DNA of 64,000 nucleotides from Roseofilum casamattae BLCC-M143 (GTDB lineage Bacteria > Cyanobacteriota > Cyanobacteriia > Cyanobacteriales > Desertifilaceae), in contig NZ_JAQOSQ010000001.1 of the NCBI RefSeq assembly GCF_030068455.1, forward strand, positions 124,001 to 188,000, read 5' to 3'. The first letter of the stretch is position 1; every line of letters starts with the position of its first letter. Below, piece by piece: positions 11,364-19,704 of this stretch. A program made the translations under genes and the position numbers. Below the pieces are notes generated by a model. The model saw nothing but the letters and a program-made list of their open reading frames with translations, was not told the origin of the DNA and ran no database searches.

Positions 11364-12158
11364 GTGTGGTTAGCATTAGTGATGGGAAATTCTCGGTTTC
11401 ACTGGGGATTGTGCGATCGCCGCTCCCTCCTCTATCGTTGGGATACTCCCCATCTATCCCCATCTGAAATCGATCGCATTGCTTCAGACTGGGATAAGGG
11501 AACGGTTCCAGAGTTTCTCTTACAAGAACTAGCCTTAAATCATCATCTTTCTACAGTAACTTTAGCAACTCTTCCTCTCGTTCTTTCCTCCGTCGTTCCC
11601 GCACTCACACCACTCTGGACGAAGTATTCCCAGACTCGTATCCTGACACTTGCCGATCTTCCTTTAAACAATACTTATCTCACTCTAGGTATCGATCGCG
11701 CTCTAGCTGTCGTCGGTGCTGGAGAGCATTGGGGATGGCCGGTTTTGGTTATCGATGGGGGAACCGCACTGACGCTGACTGGCGCCGATCGCGATCGCAA
11801 CTTAGTAGGTGGAGCCATTTTACCCGGTTTAGGGCTGCAAATTCGCGCTCTAGCAAGTCAAACCGGCGCTTTACCTCAAATTAGTCTCTCGCAGCCTCTG
11901 CCGCCGCGCTGGAGCCAAAATACGGAAGATGCGATCGCCAGCGGAATTTGGTACGTTTTGTTATCCGGTCTCCAGGACTTTATCCAAAATTGGCACGAGA
12001 GCTATCCCGATTCTGCCATTATTTTTACCGGAGGCGATGGGGAAATCTTGCACGAGAGAGTCCAACAGGCTTATCCTCAACTGAGTTCTTATCTGCACTG
12101 CGATCGCGATCTCGTCTTTCGCGGCTATTTGGCCCTACATGACTTAGAAATAATTTAA
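11364..12158 (+). CDS. coaX: Type III pantothenate kinase
   Basis: A 264-residue enzyme catalysing the first step of coenzyme A synthesis, ATP-dependent phosphorylation of pantothenate. The fold is of the ASKHA type. The phosphate-binding N-terminus is GNSRFHWG rather than the DIGNT of most CoaX, a form I recall from cyanobacterial members. GIDRALAVVGA near residue 113 holds the catalytic Asp, VLVIDGGTALTLT near 132 is the second nucleotide motif, and GGAILPGLGLQ follows. Type III enzymes need a monovalent cation and are not feedback-inhibited by CoA. The start codon is GTG. An alternative ATG six codons later would delete the first strand, so GTG is preferred. Confidence 0.88.
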   Translation: MWLALVMGNSRFHWGLCDRRSLLYRWDTPHLSPSEIDRIASDWDKGTVPEFLLQELALNHHLSTVTLATLPLVLSSVVPALTPLWTKYSQTRILTLADLPLNNTYLTLGIDRALAVVGAGEHWGWPVLVIDGGTALTLTGADRDRNLVGGAILPGLGLQIRALASQTGALPQISLSQPLPPRWSQNTEDAIASGIWYVLLSGLQDFIQNWHESYPDSAIIFTGGDGEILHERVQQAYPQLSSYLHCDRDLVFRGYLALHDLEII

Positions 12159-12232
12159 CCTCTATTGTGAATAAGAAGTGGATGGTTTCCCGACCTATTC
12201 CGATCTCGAATAAGCCAAGTTTTGCTCGAGGC

Positions 12233-12264
12233 TTGACTCTCCCGTCAGGCAGAGAGTTTATGCT
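12233..12264 (+). promoter_or_regulatory. MerR-type promoter/operator upstream of the multicopper oxidase
   Basis: A -35 TTGACT (12233-12238) and a -10 TATGCT (12259-12264) are separated by 20 bases, longer than the 17 optimal for sigma-70 and typical of promoters remodelled by MerR-family activators. Between them lies the dyad ACTCTC (12236-12241) - 10 bases - GAGAGT (12252-12257). The site at 13751-13782 has the same -35, the same dyad and the same spacing. A metal-responsive MerR regulator (CueR- or CoaR-like) is the inferred ligand. No such regulator gene is in the window. Confidence 0.6.
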
Positions 12265-12329
12265 AATAAAGTGACCAAATCTTACAGACAAAATACGAAC
12301 TGAGAAGTCTCGACTCAGAGATTAAGATT

Positions 12330-13754
12330 ATGGGCTTCAATCGCCGCCAACTTTTAGTTATTGGAATGGCAAGCTTGGGAACCACTTGGGCAAGCCATCG
12401 AGTTTTTCGTCCTCGTATGTTCTCTAGCGAAAAAAATGAGAGCAGCGCTCCAGTGTATCGCAGCCAAGACGGAAGATTAGAAGTGGCACTCACAGCGAGC
12501 GATCGCCGAATTCGACTCGGCAATAAATCTGCCCGGTTAATGACCTATAATCAACAGCTTCCCGGTCCTCGTTTAGAAGTGAAACCTGGCGATCGAGTTC
12601 GGATTCACTTCACTAATTATCTCAACGAAGCCACGAATCTTCATTACCATGGGTTGCATATTCCTATTTCTGGAAATGGAGATAACGTCTTTCTCCAAAT
12701 TCGGGAAAATGAAACATTCACTTACGATTTTCAGATTCCCAGCAACCATCGTGCTGGATTATTTTGGTATCATCCCCATCATCATGGCTTAGTTGCGAAA
12801 CAACTCTTTGCTGGACTTGCCGGACTGTTTGTCGTGCGCGGAGAACTCGATCGCATTCCCGAAATAAAAGACGCTGACGAACAGTTTTTAGTCTTACAAG
12901 ATTTTGGATTAGATGAAAAAGGAAATCGATTAGACGATCGCGATCTTTCGATAATGACCGGACGAGAAGGAAATGCGATCGCAGTTAACGGACTGCAAAA
13001 TCCTACCTTAACCATTCCTGCGGGTAAACTATTGCGTTTGCGAATTTTGAATGCTTCTCCCTCGCGCTTTTATCGCTTGGCACTAGAAGAGCATTCCTTT
13101 CATCTCATCGCAACAGATGGAGGAGCGTTATCGAAACCCATCGCTTGCGAAGAGATCTTACTGTCTCCAGGAGAACGAGCCGATGTTTTAGTGCAAGGAA
13201 ATCGAGAACCGGGACAATATCGCCTGTTGAATTTACCCTACGAACGAATTAGAATGGGCATGATGGGAAGTGGCGATCGCAACTCGTCTTCAGTTCTGGC
13301 AACAGTTAGTTATGCCACCTCCAGCCATCCTCTTTTGCCTCAGCAACTTATTCCCATCGAACCATTACCCGAACCTAAATTTACTCGCCAGTTTATCCTC
13401 AATCATGGCATGAGTTCCTCGCGAGGAATGTCTTTTCTAATTAACCGTCAATCCTACGATCCAGAACGTATCGATACTGCCGTGAAATTAGATACCGTTG
13501 AAGATTGGGAGTTGCAGAATACCGGAATTATGGATCATCCCTTTCACGTTCATGGAAATTCGTTTCAAATCTTAAGCCGAAACGGCATATCCGAACCTTA
13601 TTTATCTTGGAAAGATGTGGTCTTAGTCAAACCTGGAGAAACAGTAAAGATTCGCCTGAAATTTCGTGATTTTACCGGAAAAGCCGTCTATCATTGCCAT
13701 GTTTTAGACCATGAAGATTTAGGCATGATGGGCAATTTACAAATTGGGGCTTGA
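12330..13754 (+). CDS. Multicopper oxidase with Tat-type signal
   Basis: A 474-residue exported oxidase, probably acting on Cu(I) or phenolic substrates in the periplasm. The N-terminus has a twin-arginine pattern (NRRQLLVIG) and a hydrophobic stretch. The four copper-ligand blocks are present: HYHGLHI near residue 108, WYHPHHHG near 149, HPFHVHG near 403, and HCHVLDHEDLGM near 457, which includes the type 1 Cys, its His and a Met axial ligand. The Met-rich helix of CueO is absent. With DUF411 and CopA downstream, a copper-detoxification role is likely. The MerR-type promoter lies 66 bases upstream of the ATG. Its stop codon overlaps the next operator. Confidence 0.92.
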   Translation: MGFNRRQLLVIGMASLGTTWASHRVFRPRMFSSEKNESSAPVYRSQDGRLEVALTASDRRIRLGNKSARLMTYNQQLPGPRLEVKPGDRVRIHFTNYLNEATNLHYHGLHIPISGNGDNVFLQIRENETFTYDFQIPSNHRAGLFWYHPHHHGLVAKQLFAGLAGLFVVRGELDRIPEIKDADEQFLVLQDFGLDEKGNRLDDRDLSIMTGREGNAIAVNGLQNPTLTIPAGKLLRLRILNASPSRFYRLALEEHSFHLIATDGGALSKPIACEEILLSPGERADVLVQGNREPGQYRLLNLPYERIRMGMMGSGDRNSSSVLATVSYATSSHPLLPQQLIPIEPLPEPKFTRQFILNHGMSSSRGMSFLINRQSYDPERIDTAVKLDTVEDWELQNTGIMDHPFHVHGNSFQILSRNGISEPYLSWKDVVLVKPGETVKIRLKFRDFTGKAVYHCHVLDHEDLGMMGNLQIGA

Positions 13755-13782
13755 CTCTCCATCAAGCTAGAGAGTGTACGGT
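13751..13782 (+). promoter_or_regulatory. Second MerR-type promoter/operator, upstream of DUF411-copA
   Basis: TTGACT (13751-13756), a 20-base spacer and TACGGT (13777-13782), with the dyad ACTCTC (13754-13759) - 10 bases - GAGAGT (13770-13775). The site repeats the architecture of 12233-12264. It overlaps the last codons and the TGA of the multicopper oxidase, so DUF411 and copA can be transcribed from their own inducible promoter as well as by read-through. The long spacer and central dyad are the evidence for MerR-family control. The inducing metal is inferred from the genes to be copper. Confidence 0.6.
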
Positions 13783-13846
13783 GGGATTAAAGCAATGAGT
13801 CGCATCATCGGCCAACTGCTGCAATACCCTATCCCCGCACAGCATC

Positions 13847-14389
13847 ATGAAGGAAAACTTTAGCTTACACCGAAAAAAAATAGCGATCGCCGGTATTAGT
13901 CTTGCCGTTATCTTAACCGCTACCTATGGGTTGACAAACCGTAACGCTCCCGATCCAGTCGCAGCAGAGATCGCCCCGGTTTCCGTCGCCACTGTTAGCG
14001 ATAGTCAGTTAAAAATGACGATCTATCGCACCCCAACCTGTGGCTGTTGTGAAGGATGGATGCAGCACATGGAAGAGCAGAATTTTGAAGTAAGCGATCG
14101 CATTCTTTCCAACGACGAAATCGACAGTATTCGCGAGCAACATAACTTACCCAAATCTCTTTCCTCTTGCCATACTGCTGTCATTAATGGCTACTTAGTA
14201 GAAGGACACGTTCCCGCTGCTGATGTGAAACAATTAATTGCGCAAAAGCCCGATATCGCTGGCATTGCCGTACCGGGAATGCCTATTGGAACTCCAGGTA
14301 TGGAAATAGGCGATCGCAAGGAATCTTTCGAGGTTTTAGGATTTACGTCTGAGGGGAAAATTTCTACGTTTAATTCCTACACCTATTAG
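13847..14389 (+). CDS. Exported DUF411 protein (metal-binding, copper-locus associated)
   Basis: A 180-residue protein. Residues 1-40 are a signal peptide or N-terminal anchor (IAIAGISLAVILTATYG). The DUF411 domain begins near residue 55 with TIYRTPTCGCCEGW, a CxCC thiol cluster like a thioredoxin-fold metal site. Later come CHTAVINGYLVEGHVPA and PGMPIGTPGME, both characteristic of the family. Family members are repeatedly found beside copper or heavy-metal resistance genes, and the neighbours here agree. A periplasmic copper-binding or delivery role is inferred, not proven. copA starts 26 bases after its stop, so the two form an operon. Confidence 0.87.
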   Translation: MKENFSLHRKKIAIAGISLAVILTATYGLTNRNAPDPVAAEIAPVSVATVSDSQLKMTIYRTPTCGCCEGWMQHMEEQNFEVSDRILSNDEIDSIREQHNLPKSLSSCHTAVINGYLVEGHVPAADVKQLIAQKPDIAGIAVPGMPIGTPGMEIGDRKESFEVLGFTSEGKISTFNSYTY

Positions 14390-14415
14390 AGATAAAATCT
14401 TTCCAGGTATGAGTC

Positions 14416-16662
14416 ATGGAACAAGCAATATTTAAACTAGAAGGTATGAGCTGTGCCGCTTGCGCCAGCGCTGTCGAACGACTGATTAATCGCGTTTCTG
14501 GAGTGAGCGAGTGTCAGGTTAATTTTAGTTTAGAAGAAGCAACAGTACGCTACAATCCAGCAGAAACAACGATCGCAACAATTGAAGCTAAAGTCGCGGG
14601 TGGCGGCTTTCATGCTTCCTTGATTCCAGAGGAAATATCGGCGACAGAATATCCCGAGGAAAGCGATCGCAATCCAGCAAATCTAGCCTTACAGAAAAAA
14701 GTATTTTTTGCCGCGATCGCCAGTAGTTTCCTAGTCATCGGTTCACTGCCAATGATGACGGGTTTATCCATTCCTTTCATTCCCATGTGGCTGCATAATG
14801 TTTGGGTGCAATTTATCTTCGCAACTCCCATTCAATTTTGGTGCGGATTGCAGTTTTATGGGAATGCCTGGAAAGCTTTAAAACAAAGAACGGCAACCAT
14901 GGATACCTTAATTGCGTTGGGAACTAGCGTGGCTTATGGCTATTCTTTAGTTGTTTCGCTCTTTCCCAGTATTTTAGGCGATCGCACCTCCCATATTGAA
15001 GTTTATTACGAAGCTTCCGTTGTCATTATCACCTTGGTTCTCGTCGGACGACTATTAGAAGAACGAGCGAAAAAACAAACCTCAGCCGCCATTTATCAAT
15101 TAATAGGATTGCAACCAAAAATGGCTTGCGTTCTGCGCAATGGAGCAGAAGAGCAGATTTCCATCGAACGAGTCAAAATCGGAGATATTGTCTTAGTTCG
15201 TCCCGGTGAAAAAATTCCCATCGACGGGGAAGTGATTCGAGGAGAATCTACCGTGGATGAATCTATGGTAACCGGGGAAAGTATTGGAGTGCAGAAAGGA
15301 AAAGGAGATGAGGCGATCGCCGCTACAATAAATCAAACCGGTTCCTTGCAGATTCGTACCACTCGCATTGGCAACAATACGCTTTTAGCCCAAATTATTC
15401 AACTGGTGCGGGATGCACAACGCTCGAAAGCACCGATCCAACGATTAGCCGATCGCATTACTCATTGGTTTGTCCCAACAGTGATGGCGATCGCATGTTT
15501 AACTCTGCTACTCTGGATAACCCTCACCGGAAACATCACCCTCGCCTTACTCTGCGCCGTCGGAGTCCTGATTATTGCCTGTCCTTGCGCCTTGGGGTTA
15601 GCAACTCCCACCTCCGTCATGGTAGGGACGGGGAAAGGCGCGGAATACGGCATTTTGATTAAAGGGGGCGAAAGTCTGGAACTGGCTCATTCCTTGCAAA
15701 CCATTGTTCTGGATAAAACCGGTACTCTCACTCAAGGCAAACCCACCGTCACCGATTTTATTACCGTTCGCGGAACTGCCGACGAGTTGCACCTATTGCA
15801 ATATGCTGCTGCTGTGGAGCGCTATTCCGAACATCCCCTCGCCGAGGCAGTGGTGCGCTACGGGCGATCGCAAGAACTTGAAATCTTGGAAGCGCAAGAG
15901 TTTCAGGCAGTTGTGGGTAGCGGCGTTACCGGAACCGTCGCTCGTCGTCAAGTCCGCATCGGCACTCGTCGCTGGATGGAAGAGTTGGGGATGGACGCTG
16001 GAGAGTTGCAATCTCGCGCTACGGAGTTAGAAGCTTTGGGAAAAACCGTGATTTGGATCGCAGTTGATGGCACAATTGCGGGCATTATGGGAATCTCCGA
16101 TGCCTTAAAACCTTCCTCCGCGCCAGTAGTTTCGCAATTGCAACGGATGGGTTTGGAGGTAGTCATGCTCACCGGCGATAACCGGTTTACGGCTCAATCT
16201 ATTGCCCGAGAAGTGGGTATTACTAGGGTGTTGGCAGAGGTACGTCCCGATCGCAAAGCGGAGACCATTCGGCAACTGCAAGCAGAAGGAAAGCGAGTGG
16301 CCATGGTGGGAGACGGGATTAATGATGCTCCCGCACTGGCACAAGCCGATTTGGGAATGGCCATTGGAACGGGAACGGATGTGGCGATCGCCGCCAGCGA
16401 TATTACCCTGATCTCCGGCGATCTGCAAGGCATTCTGACTGCGATCGAACTCTCCCGCGCCACCATCGGAAATATTCGGCAAAATCTGTTCTTTGCGTTT
16501 ATTTATAATAGTTTCGGAATTGCGATCGCCACCGGTATTTTCTTCCCAATTTTTGGCTGGTTGCTCAATCCCGTTCTTGCCGGTGCTGCCATGGCATTGA
16601 GTTCGGTTTCCGTGGTGACGAATGCTCTGCGGTTGCGCCACTTTCACCCAAAATCAATCTAA
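14416..16662 (+). CDS. copA: Copper-translocating P1B-type ATPase
   Basis: A 748-residue membrane pump. One N-terminal heavy-metal-associated domain has GMSCAACAS (CxxC near residue 14). Eight membrane segments are expected. The A-domain has VTGES. TM6 carries the Cu(I) motif CPC near 388. The phosphorylation site DKTGTLT is near 433, followed by SEHPLAEA with the P1B His-Pro pair and [10 protein letters not shown] near 632. CPC, the C-terminal metal motifs and linkage to an oxidase and DUF411 indicate Cu(I) export. Cyanobacterial paralogues CtaA and PacS instead move copper in for thylakoids, and sequence alone does not fully separate them. The copper gene block ends here. Confidence 0.92.
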
Positions 16663-16694
16663 GGTTGAAGAAACCAGGTTTTTCGCTAAACCCA

Positions 16695-16722
16695 GTAGAG
16701 ACAAGGCATGCCTTGTCTCTAC
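16695..16722. repeat. Perfect 28-bp palindrome between copA and the Ca2+ ATPase
   Basis: GTAGAGACAAGGCA is followed immediately by its exact reverse complement. It sits between two convergent genes (copA ends at 16662, the Ca2+ ATPase stop is at 16765), where it could terminate both. I know the GTAGAGAC palindrome as a dispersed repeat of cyanobacterial genomes. A poly-T tail is lacking, so termination is inferred from position only. Confidence 0.6.
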
Positions 16723-16764
16723 GGCAGAGAAAACTTGAAAGAAACTGGTGTTCTAGCTCCAGAG

Positions 16765-19704
16765 CTAGGATTCGGTTTTCGCCGTCATTCGTGCCAACAA
16801 GCGTTCGATTTCCCCCACCCAGAGAATGGCGGAGGTTCCTCCCCAAATAATTAACCAATCCTGGAGAGAAAGAGGAACGGTTCTAAAGACGGTTCCGCCC
16901 CATTGCACCATGGCAATTTGTCCGAATAGGATAATTGCAGAGATGCTTAAAAATCCGGGACTATCCGACAGATTTTTGAAGATGGATTCTTTAACTCCGA
17001 AGCATTTTGCATTGAACAGGTTCCACCAGTTGACAATAACAAAGGTGGTGAAGAATAAGGAGAGTTCGTAAGGACTGACTTCGCCATCTTGCTGAATATA
17101 GAGCAGGAAAGCAACGAAGAAGACCAAGAACAGAGCTGCCACCGTGAGAATTTGCCGCGCCATAGCTGGGGTAATGATAAAGGCTTTCGGGTCCCGGGGG
17201 CGATCGCGCATGACTTTGGGATTTGCCGGTTCTGTCGCCAGAGCTAAGGCGGCAAAGGTGTCCATAATTAAGTTCACCCATAATAATTGGGTTACTGTTA
17301 GCGGCAGATTGATGTTGATGAACGGTCCGAGGAGAGCGAGGGCACAAGCGGCGACGTTAATAGTGAGCTGGAATAAGAGAAACTTCTGGATATTTTGATA
17401 GAGCGATCGCCCCCACATTACCGCATTCTCAATACTCTTGAAGGAGTGGTCGAGAATAATAATATCGCTGGCATCTTTCGCCACGGAAGTACTCTCTTGT
17501 CCCATAGCCAAACCCACCTGAGCTTGATTCATCGCCGGAGCATCGTTGGTGCCATCTCCAGTGACGGCAACCACTTCGCCATTGTCTTGCAACAGTTTCA
17601 CCAGCCGTTGTTTGTCTCCAGGACGAGCGCGAGAGAGCACTTTTAAATCTTTGACAGCGGTGCGAGCTTCTTCATCATTGAGTTGCGCAAAAGCTTTTCC
17701 GGTAATAAAGCACTCCGAACCATCCTCTTCCGTGACTAATCCGATTTCTCGGGCAATGTGCTGGGCAGTGTTAGAGTTATCGCCGGTGACAATTTTCACT
17801 CCGACACCAGCTCGCTTGCAGGTTTTAATCGCTCGGGGAACATCGGGACGAATGGGATCGGAAATGGCAAAAAAGCCCAGCCAGATCATCGGTTGATTCA
17901 GCATTGGTTCGATTTCAACGTCACTTTCTCGATCGAGAGCAGGGATAGTATCTAAATAGGCTAATCCTAAAATCCTCATGCCCTTGGCTTCGTACTGCTG
18001 GATATCGTTGGCAATTTCACTATGGCTGCGGATCGGTTGTACGCCATCTTTAGTGACCATACGGTTGCATCGGGGGAGGATGACTTCTGGCGCCCCTTTG
18101 ATGTGGAGGATCGGGCATTCAAATCCGGGTGCATAGCCTAAGGTTGCCATGTATTTTCGTTCCGGCGAAAAGGTAAGCTGAGTGAGGATATTGAAAGACT
18201 GGCGTTGGTCTTGATAGTTGCGATCGCGCTCTTCCAACCAGAGCAGGAGAGCGCCCTCGGTAGGATCGCCAATGACGGAAACATTTTCTTTTCCTCCATC
18301 CAAGTCGCAACTGCGTTCTAGGTTGGCCGTACTATTAACGGCGATCGCTTCGGCGATTAAATCCATCTCTCCTGCCAAACAGGCTTGGCTGACTTCCATC
18401 TTATTTAAGGTAATGGTTCCGGTTTTATCGGAACAAATAACCGTAGTCGCGCCAATGGTTTCGCAGGCTTGCATTTGTCGCACCAGAGCATTCTGGCTGG
18501 TCATGCGTCGCATACTGTAGGCGAGGCTGAGGACGACGCTCAGGGGAAGACCTTCGGGAACGGCAACTACAATGATGGCAACGGCGATCGTGAAGTAGGT
18601 GAGTAAGGAGGTGGCGGCGGCTTTGGTAATCCAGGATTGGGGGTTGCTGGGAACCCAATGCAAGAGCCAGCCTACCCCCAATCCGGCCCCCAGCACTAGC
18701 GCTCCGATGGCAAAACTTTTCAGCCATTCCAGGATGCTTTCGTCTTCCAGCCATTCCGGCATTTCGAGTTCGGGTTTGAGGAAACTCAGGCCGTCGTAGA
18801 CAATAGGCAACCAAACTTTAACTAGGGCAATAGCTGCGCTGAGAATGACTAAACCGGTGACGTACCACTGTTGATAGGTGAGAGCGAACTCGTGGGTGAG
18901 GATGCCGCGAAAAATCAGTGCCGCATCGATGAAAACGGCGATCGCCAGTCCGCAAACTCCAATTAACTGACTGAGGCGATCGAGTTGTTGATTGAGGGGA
19001 GTTTTTTCATTCGTCGGACCGCTAGCAGCGCGGGCAGTGTCGCCAATTTCGGTGCGATCGCCCACGGCAATAATTTCCAGGATGCCATGGCCGTCTACGA
19101 CAATCGTACCCCGCAGAGCGCGATCGGGCGAGTAAGCCGTACTATCGACTGAGAGCGTCTCCAGTTGATGAGAAGTTACTTTGGTTACTGGGAGAGTTTC
19201 GCCGGTAAGGCTCGACTCGTTGATTTGAAAAGAAACCGCCCCAACGACAACGCCATCGGCAGGCACTTCATCCCCCGCTTCGAGCAAGATAATATCGCCA
19301 ACGACAATATCTTTTTTTGGAACCGTGGTAAAGATACTATCGCGAACTACGGTAATGGGGACTTCATCATTAACTTGATTGAGAATATTAAACTCTTGCG
19401 TCGCTTTGTACTCGTTAATAAACGCAACGGTGGTGGCGAGAAAAATCGCGATCAGAATGCCGACGCCTTCGATATAATCTCCATCAACAAAACCAATGGC
19501 GATCGCGACCAGAGCAGCAACAATGAGAATGCGAATAATTGGGTCTTCATATTTTTCTAAATAAAGAGTCCACCAGGGAGTTTGTTCGCCAGGAGTGAGT
19601 ATATTAGGGCCGTGGCGATCGCGACTTTCGTCTACTTGTCGGGCAGTTAATCCCCGGAGGTGTTTGGAGTTATCTAGAGTAGCTGTATAGCGTTCAATCG
19701 TCAT
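16765..19704 (-). CDS. Calcium-translocating P2B-type (PMCA-like) ATPase
   Basis: A 979-residue cation pump. The N-terminal cytoplasmic region ends HGPNILTPGEQTPWW, followed by TM1-2, the A-domain with SSLTGETLPV, and TM4 with VPEGLPLSV, which holds the Ca2+-ligand Glu-Gly-Leu-Pro typical of plasma-membrane-type pumps rather than PEGLP of SERCA. The phosphorylation site DKTGTITLNKM is near residue 423, then GDGTNDAPAMNQA, and a C-terminal TM5-10 bundle with NLIMDTFAALALATEP. Export of Ca2+ to the periplasm is expected. There is no calmodulin-binding tail as in animal PMCAs. It converges with copA and lies downstream of bciB on the same strand with a 256-base gap. Confidence 0.93.
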   Translation of the reverse strand: MTIERYTATLDNSKHLRGLTARQVDESRDRHGPNILTPGEQTPWWTLYLEKYEDPIIRILIVAALVAIAIGFVDGDYIEGVGILIAIFLATTVAFINEYKATQEFNILNQVNDEVPITVVRDSIFTTVPKKDIVVGDIILLEAGDEVPADGVVVGAVSFQINESSLTGETLPVTKVTSHQLETLSVDSTAYSPDRALRGTIVVDGHGILEIIAVGDRTEIGDTARAASGPTNEKTPLNQQLDRLSQLIGVCGLAIAVFIDAALIFRGILTHEFALTYQQWYVTGLVILSAAIALVKVWLPIVYDGLSFLKPELEMPEWLEDESILEWLKSFAIGALVLGAGLGVGWLLHWVPSNPQSWITKAAATSLLTYFTIAVAIIVVAVPEGLPLSVVLSLAYSMRRMTSQNALVRQMQACETIGATTVICSDKTGTITLNKMEVSQACLAGEMDLIAEAIAVNSTANLERSCDLDGGKENVSVIGDPTEGALLLWLEERDRNYQDQRQSFNILTQLTFSPERKYMATLGYAPGFECPILHIKGAPEVILPRCNRMVTKDGVQPIRSHSEIANDIQQYEAKGMRILGLAYLDTIPALDRESDVEIEPMLNQPMIWLGFFAISDPIRPDVPRAIKTCKRAGVGVKIVTGDNSNTAQHIAREIGLVTEEDGSECFITGKAFAQLNDEEARTAVKDLKVLSRARPGDKQRLVKLLQDNGEVVAVTGDGTNDAPAMNQAQVGLAMGQESTSVAKDASDIIILDHSFKSIENAVMWGRSLYQNIQKFLLFQLTINVAACALALLGPFININLPLTVTQLLWVNLIMDTFAALALATEPANPKVMRDRPRDPKAFIITPAMARQILTVAALFLVFFVAFLLYIQQDGEVSPYELSLFFTTFVIVNWWNLFNAKCFGVKESIFKNLSDSPGFLSISAIILFGQIAMVQWGGTVFRTVPLSLQDWLIIWGGTSAILWVGEIERLLARMTAKTES

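Follow-up and report, generated by a model that had tools for sequence, protein, structure and literature searches.

CueR of E. coli and its relatives belongs to the MerR family, and its targets copA and cueO, which encode a Cu-ATPase and a multicopper oxidase, are located away from the regulator gene. For the CueR-type CopR the ligand set is given as Ser77, Cys112 and Cys120, whereas divalent sensors have a Cys at position 77 (PMC11591864). A CueR variant, S77C, responds to divalent ions as well as to Cu(I) (cited in PMC11591864).

Most work on cyanobacterial copper resistance has dealt with Synechocystis and its CopRS system. The portion of PMC4284471 available to us assigns copper to CopRS and cobalt to CoaR, mentions the MerR family (reference list apart) for CoaR only, and reports that CopRS does not control ctaA, pacS or atx1. 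For Slr0701 of Synechocystis PCC 6803, binding to an inverted repeat shared by its own upstream region and that of merA was described, with HgCl2 as the inducer; the slr0701 mutant had a growth defect on HgCl2 and matched the wild type in growth on every other metal tried, including copper (data not shown there; PMC6741143). A primer printed in PMC6741143, used here to look for Slr0701, had no match among the 388 genomes that we searched. Sites of MerR-type regulators, 22 cyanobacterial regulators among them, have also been built, and those of the MerR and HMRTR types comprise 22 bases (PMC5045206). These papers thus already document cyanobacterial sites of the MerR type and a MerR protein of this phylum that regulates itself (PMC5045206, PMC6741143). 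No description of MerR copper control in cyanobacteria was found among the matches listed in a search of titles and abstract starts of open-licence PubMed Central papers, and none of five cyanobacterial terms occurs in an earlier comparative paper (PMC1526738).

Here we analyse a copper gene cluster in a window of 64,000 nucleotides from Roseofilum casamattae BLCC-M143 (contig C1; NZ_JAQOSQ010000001.1, positions 124,001 to 188,000). Two sites in this window are quite probably operator-promoters of one MerR-family activator that is encoded on another contig, C2, with copper as the likeliest signal.

Promoters and genes of the copper cluster

The first MerR-type promoter (TTGACTCTCCCGTCAGGCAGAGAGTTTATGCT, positions 12233 to 12264 of the window, forward strand) consists of a −35 box TTGACT, the dyad ACTCTC-N10-GAGAGT and a −10 box TATGCT. 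It precedes the gene for a multicopper oxidase of 474 aa (12330 to 13754, forward strand) with three Cu-oxidase domains and, near the N terminus, RRQLL, which we take to be a Tat-like motif; the protein is a probable periplasmic Cu(I) oxidase. The second promoter (TTGACTCTCCATCAAGCTAGAGAGTGTACGGT, 13751 to 13782, forward strand) has the same −35 box and dyad and the −10 box TACGGT. It is followed on the same strand by genes for a DUF411 protein of 180 aa (13847 to 14389), whose N terminus is hydrophobic and whose sequence includes TCGCC, and for CopA, a copper-type P1B ATPase of 748 aa (14416 to 16662). CopA reached 648.6 bits against the model of copper-translocating ATPases (TIGR01511, cut-off 397) and contains GMSCAAC, CPC, YN and MALSS, motifs that presumably bear on Cu(I).

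The initial annotation had described the sites as identically spaced, with 20 bases between the −35 and −10 boxes, and the second as an internal promoter overlapping the oxidase stop codon. All of this was borne out letter for letter: both 32-base sites are exact, 20 bases separate TTGACT from TATGCT and from TACGGT, and the TGA at 13752–13754 lies inside the −35 box of the second site. At both sites the dyad fills the spacer and overlaps the 3′ end of the −35 box, which in both cases matches sigma-70 well. The symmetry of site 1 is limited to 6 of 11 dyad pairs, which counts against its reading as a MerR operator.

A scan of positions 12100–16900 revealed no ordinary promoters with 16–18-base spacers in either gap. 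Between the stop codon of the oxidase gene and the start of the DUF411 gene, a pattern scan turned up nothing resembling a terminator; transcription from site 1 may therefore read through. Directly after copA, a second P-type ATPase of 979 aa, calcium-type by eye, is encoded convergently (16765–19704).

Occurrence of the pattern in the genome and the regulator gene

In the window, seven matches to the pattern with up to three mismatches were found (two of them the same two dyads read on the opposite strand), compared to a mean of 1.48 in shuffled sequence; none of 100 shuffles gave seven or more. In the whole genome (5,107,095 bases in 74 contigs) TTGACTCTC-N10-GAGAGT occurs without mismatch exactly three times, at the two window sites and at C2:363304, once each before the multicopper oxidase gene, DUF411-copA and a merR gene. 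The worry that the pattern might turn up at many unrelated loci is thereby removed for this genome. N-TA follows all three exact matches, although it was not specified in the search. When up to three mismatches were allowed, the genome count (79+72) was close to that of the reversed control (71+59), so the exact sites alone carry weight. Only one other place, C23:59657, departs from the pattern by a single mismatch on its strand, and it falls within a minD-like gene. Adding the −10 box at the tolerance of three mismatches left nine genome matches (five forward, four reverse), while the reversed pattern gave 5 and 0. The nine are the three sites, two opposite-strand readings of them, the C23 place on both strands, and one place each on C25 and C47. 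We accepted none of the C23, C25 and C47 places as further members of a regulon in this genome.

The third exact site, with the same 20-base spacer and the −10 box TATCCT, is located directly before a small merR gene of 137 aa (contig C2, L002:1474–1887), whose product exceeded the Pfam cut-offs for MerR_1 and MerR-DNA-bind. A TTG of the reading frame falls inside the site, and the ATG at L002:1474 is the likelier start. The same pattern and spacer in front of merR suggest that the regulator has likely been found, and the protein is probably self-regulated. As the initial annotation had stated, the regulator gene is absent from the window: MerR_1 matches occur on C2, C13 and C29 and none on C1. 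The search for MerR genes that it had proposed, and whose failure would have spoken against its idea, thus yielded a gene with the same promoter. The two other MerR_1 proteins have 395 aa and 378 aa; the latter is CoaR-like, a label that we assign from knowledge of the family, and the ATPase motif DKTGTLT can be read divergently upstream of its gene. Only the C2 gene has the exact site upstream.

Among NCBIfam models, that of Hg-type MerR matches the C2 protein best but without reaching its cut-off (89.9 of 150.85 bits), and the score against the CueR model TIGR02044 is too low as well (86.2 bits, cut-off 147.4). Identity to the best match was 52–55% in five other genomes of the genus and 65–67% in two more distant genomes, a hint of transfer or differential loss.

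The motif and the regulator in other genomes

We searched 243 genomes, our own and those of relatives, with the pattern extended by the TA of the −10 box and with one R allowed. The motif was present in 46 genomes at 64 places, while the reversed pattern occurred in 1 of 243. Although the search left position six of the −10 box free, it is T in all 64 sites; these represent 59 distinct sites over 40 bases, and the frequency of T in these regions is 0.283. In a phylum-wide sample of 292 genomes, searched without the R, the motif was found in 10, namely in 10 of 83 within the order Cyanobacteriales and 0 of 209 outside it (split counted by hand).

The first downstream gene was read at all 61 sites outside our own genome and tallied by hand. 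It encodes MerR at 13 sites (one split in two frames, one just 35% identical), DUF411 at 11 (each time with an oxidase match next, two of these cut by contig ends), CopA at 7 and a small HMA-type protein at another 7 (four called by Pfam, three by eye: L095, L097 and L138, with CopA next). Thus MerR, CopA, DUF411 or an HMA-type chaperone comes first at 38 of 61 sites. DUF305 is first at 5 sites, a small exported or hypothetical protein at 11 (CopA next in at least two), and a fused glutaredoxin-MauE protein, with an oxidase-like gene next, at one; no first gene was called at 6 sites because of contig ends, gaps or the lack of a clear frame. Altogether, 18 of the 61 sites have a downstream gene without a clear copper role or without assignment, a point against the proposed regulon.

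Some loci deserve separate mention. In a single genome, copA follows identical sites twice (L101 and L102, G161:C1), and the open frame that contains one of these copies spans 1390 aa. The merR gene after a perfect site in L106 (4514–4878) is split over two frames, which may reflect decay of the gene or an error in sequencing. Two other members of the genus (L108 and L109, 4459–5028) have the site divergent to merR, before genes for a small protein containing His and for a membrane protein that is PepSY-like by eye; the two L108 proteins had no Pfam match.

Presence of the motif was also compared with presence of the regulator in 119 genomes, including our own. Where a MerR relative was found at E ≤ 1e-20 (90 genomes), 26 genomes have the motif; none of the 29 others does (p about 2e-4, a value for a threshold chosen after viewing the table and uncorrected for relatedness). 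Among the 30 top regulator loci (about 3.4 kb each, with that of our genome among them), a site with no more than two mismatches is present in 14, compared to 1 of 600 shuffled loci in which single-base content alone was preserved. A CopA match lies within 12 of the 30. The other 16 have no site at this tolerance, so the operator varies or is missing in some lineages, which counts against a universal operator; near-dyads with 4–5 mismatches are present in some of them, such as L028, L030, L032 and L033. In two loci merR is divergent from a gene of the glutaredoxin-MauE type with the dyad in the gap, exact in L107 (3590–3818) and with one mismatch in L225 (1818–1992). In L235 (G017:C1 4427000–4431400) the MerR homolog frame, from about position 2015, extends into a thioredoxin-like tail with CKKC (by eye).

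Metal-site residues and the likely signal

For the alignment, E. coli CueR served as reference, matches shorter than 85 residues (e.g., the split merR of L106) were left out and identical proteins were collapsed. This left 51 cyanobacterial sequences with at least 45% identity, 18 below this value, 6 from loci L145–L150 and 82 others. All 51 close homologs, our own protein included, have Cys at the Ser77 position, all 51 keep the equivalent of Cys120, and the 112 region is free of Cys throughout. The same pattern was seen in the six sequences of L145–L150 and in the MerR of L225, while 3 of the 18 less similar cyanobacterial homologs do have a Cys in the 112 region. Position 77 of the 82 others is Cys in 44 and Ser in 25. 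The two-cysteine pattern recurs in 12 of these 82, one from Scytonema and the rest non-cyanobacterial by record title, and is hence not confined to cyanobacteria.

Judged by the aligned residues, the C2 MerR family fits neither the copper-sensor nor the divalent-sensor ligand set. Of the features of the CueR subfamily, it has matching predicted sites before copA and the multicopper oxidase gene, and lacks Ser77, the loop with Cys112 and Cys120, and a TIGR02044 score above cut-off. Of the set shared by Hg MerR, ZntR and CadR, the Cys77 and Cys120 equivalents are present and that of Cys112 is absent. Since CueR S77C also answers Cu(I), Cys77 does not rule copper out.

The main rival explanation retains this MerR protein and its promoters, with Hg(II) or a broad mix of soft metals as the signal and the copper genes as part of a general defence against thiophilic metals. 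It draws on the Cys at the Ser77 position, the residue of divalent-metal sensors (PMC11591864), on the HgCl2-dependent activation by Slr0701 of its own promoter and merA (PMC6741143), and on the Hg-type model being the top NCBIfam match, though under cut-off. The recognisable targets across the relatives are copper genes, however, and the Cys112 equivalent of divalent sensors is missing. Moreover, our genome has no MerA above the curated cut-off, and merA was rejected as a further target: no site lies within the approximately 300 bases upstream of the matched stretch of the most MerA-like gene. We therefore consider mercury or mixed soft-metal sensing unlikely, and retain copper as the preferred signal.

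That the promoters are real and answer to another regulator, i.e., CoaR, a two-component system or a CsoR-type protein, appears very improbable. The genome does encode the CoaR-like MerR, many response regulators and one CsoR-family protein, for which nickel-type InrS would be our guess, but among the three MerR genes the exact site stands upstream of the C2 gene alone. CopRS was discarded, as the best CopR-like gene scored below cut-off and no kinase or RND pump was seen among the frames of its 3.65-kb stretch. The view that MerR control would be a circuit unlike those of CopRS and BlaI-type repressors agrees with the gene content: our genome has no BlaI-type match and no response regulator above the curated CopR-type cut-off, the latter being weak evidence, as just 1 of 14 control genomes passed that cut-off. 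Constitutive promoters or chance resemblance, for which the sigma-70-like −35 boxes could be cited, can practically be dismissed in view of the 20-base spacer, the T in 64 of 64 −10 boxes, the link to merR, and the genome rarity and reversed control that rule out chance dyads.

A model for metal-dependent activation

It is very likely that the sites are under MerR control, in which the C2 protein would bind and activate them, and likely that copper is the signal, as the target genes suggest. A MerR dimer on the 22-base dyad between the −35 and −10 boxes would keep the over-long 20-base spacer poorly shaped for initiation. Binding of cytoplasmic metal, most likely Cu(I) and possibly also Ag(I) or Hg(II), would untwist the DNA and allow polymerase to start. 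Site 1 would then drive the oxidase gene and perhaps, by read-through, the remainder of the cluster, site 2 DUF411-copA, and site 3 the regulator itself. The predicted 5′ ends are at about 12271 and 13789, 7 bases past the −10 boxes.

We also put forward, with somewhat less than even confidence, that the Cyanobacteriales have MerR copper sensors of a lineage of their own, an exception to the rule "Ser77 means monovalent", with a two-cysteine Cu(I) site, a widespread regulon and one fixed operator. With Cys112 absent, Cu(I) would have two cysteines per site as its ligands, one subunit supplying the equivalent of Cys77 and its partner that of Cys120, as a linear bis-thiolate across the dimer. 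The regulon under such a sensor would comprise MerR, CopA, DUF411 with the multicopper oxidase, an HMA chaperone, DUF305 and small exported proteins.

If the MerR circuit is true, other Cyanobacteriales would have a cytoplasmic copper sensor of another kind, set over CopA, the oxidase and chaperones. Its two-cysteine site would offer a test of how MerR proteins discriminate copper from divalent metals, and the operator is strict enough for predicting regulon members and building metal reporters.

Comparison with described systems

With CueR, the C2 regulator would share activation of over-spaced promoters and targets that encode a Cu-ATPase and a multicopper oxidase. CueR has Ser77 and Cys112, whereas here position 77 is Cys and a Cys112 equivalent is lacking; its site has 21 bases (PMC5045206), compared to the 22-base dyad and 20-base spacer found here. 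The HMRTR-type cyanobacterial sites of PMC5045206 agree with ours in having a 22-base dyad whose centre is 8 bases from the −35 box and a spacer of 19–20 bases: the window dyad covers positions 4–25 of the site and the −35 box ends at 6. The accessible part of that paper names no cyanobacterial copper regulon or target genes.

Slr0701 is likewise a cyanobacterial MerR protein that acts on its own promoter and a distant target through a shared inverted repeat, but its reported signal is HgCl2 and its target merA (PMC6741143). CoaR/CoaT of Synechocystis resembles the present case as MerR-family control of a cyanobacterial P1-type ATPase (PMC4284471); CoaR differs in answering cobalt and in its precorrin-isomerase domain, and our genome has a separate CoaR-like gene. 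Copper-responsive control in cyanobacteria is described for CopRS/CopBAC (PMC4284471) and for BxmR (cited in PMC11591864), which are a two-component system and a repressor of the ArsR type, respectively, and neither is a MerR activator. What is new in comparison to these systems is the pairing of a copper regulon and a two-cysteine sensor of the Cys77 type.
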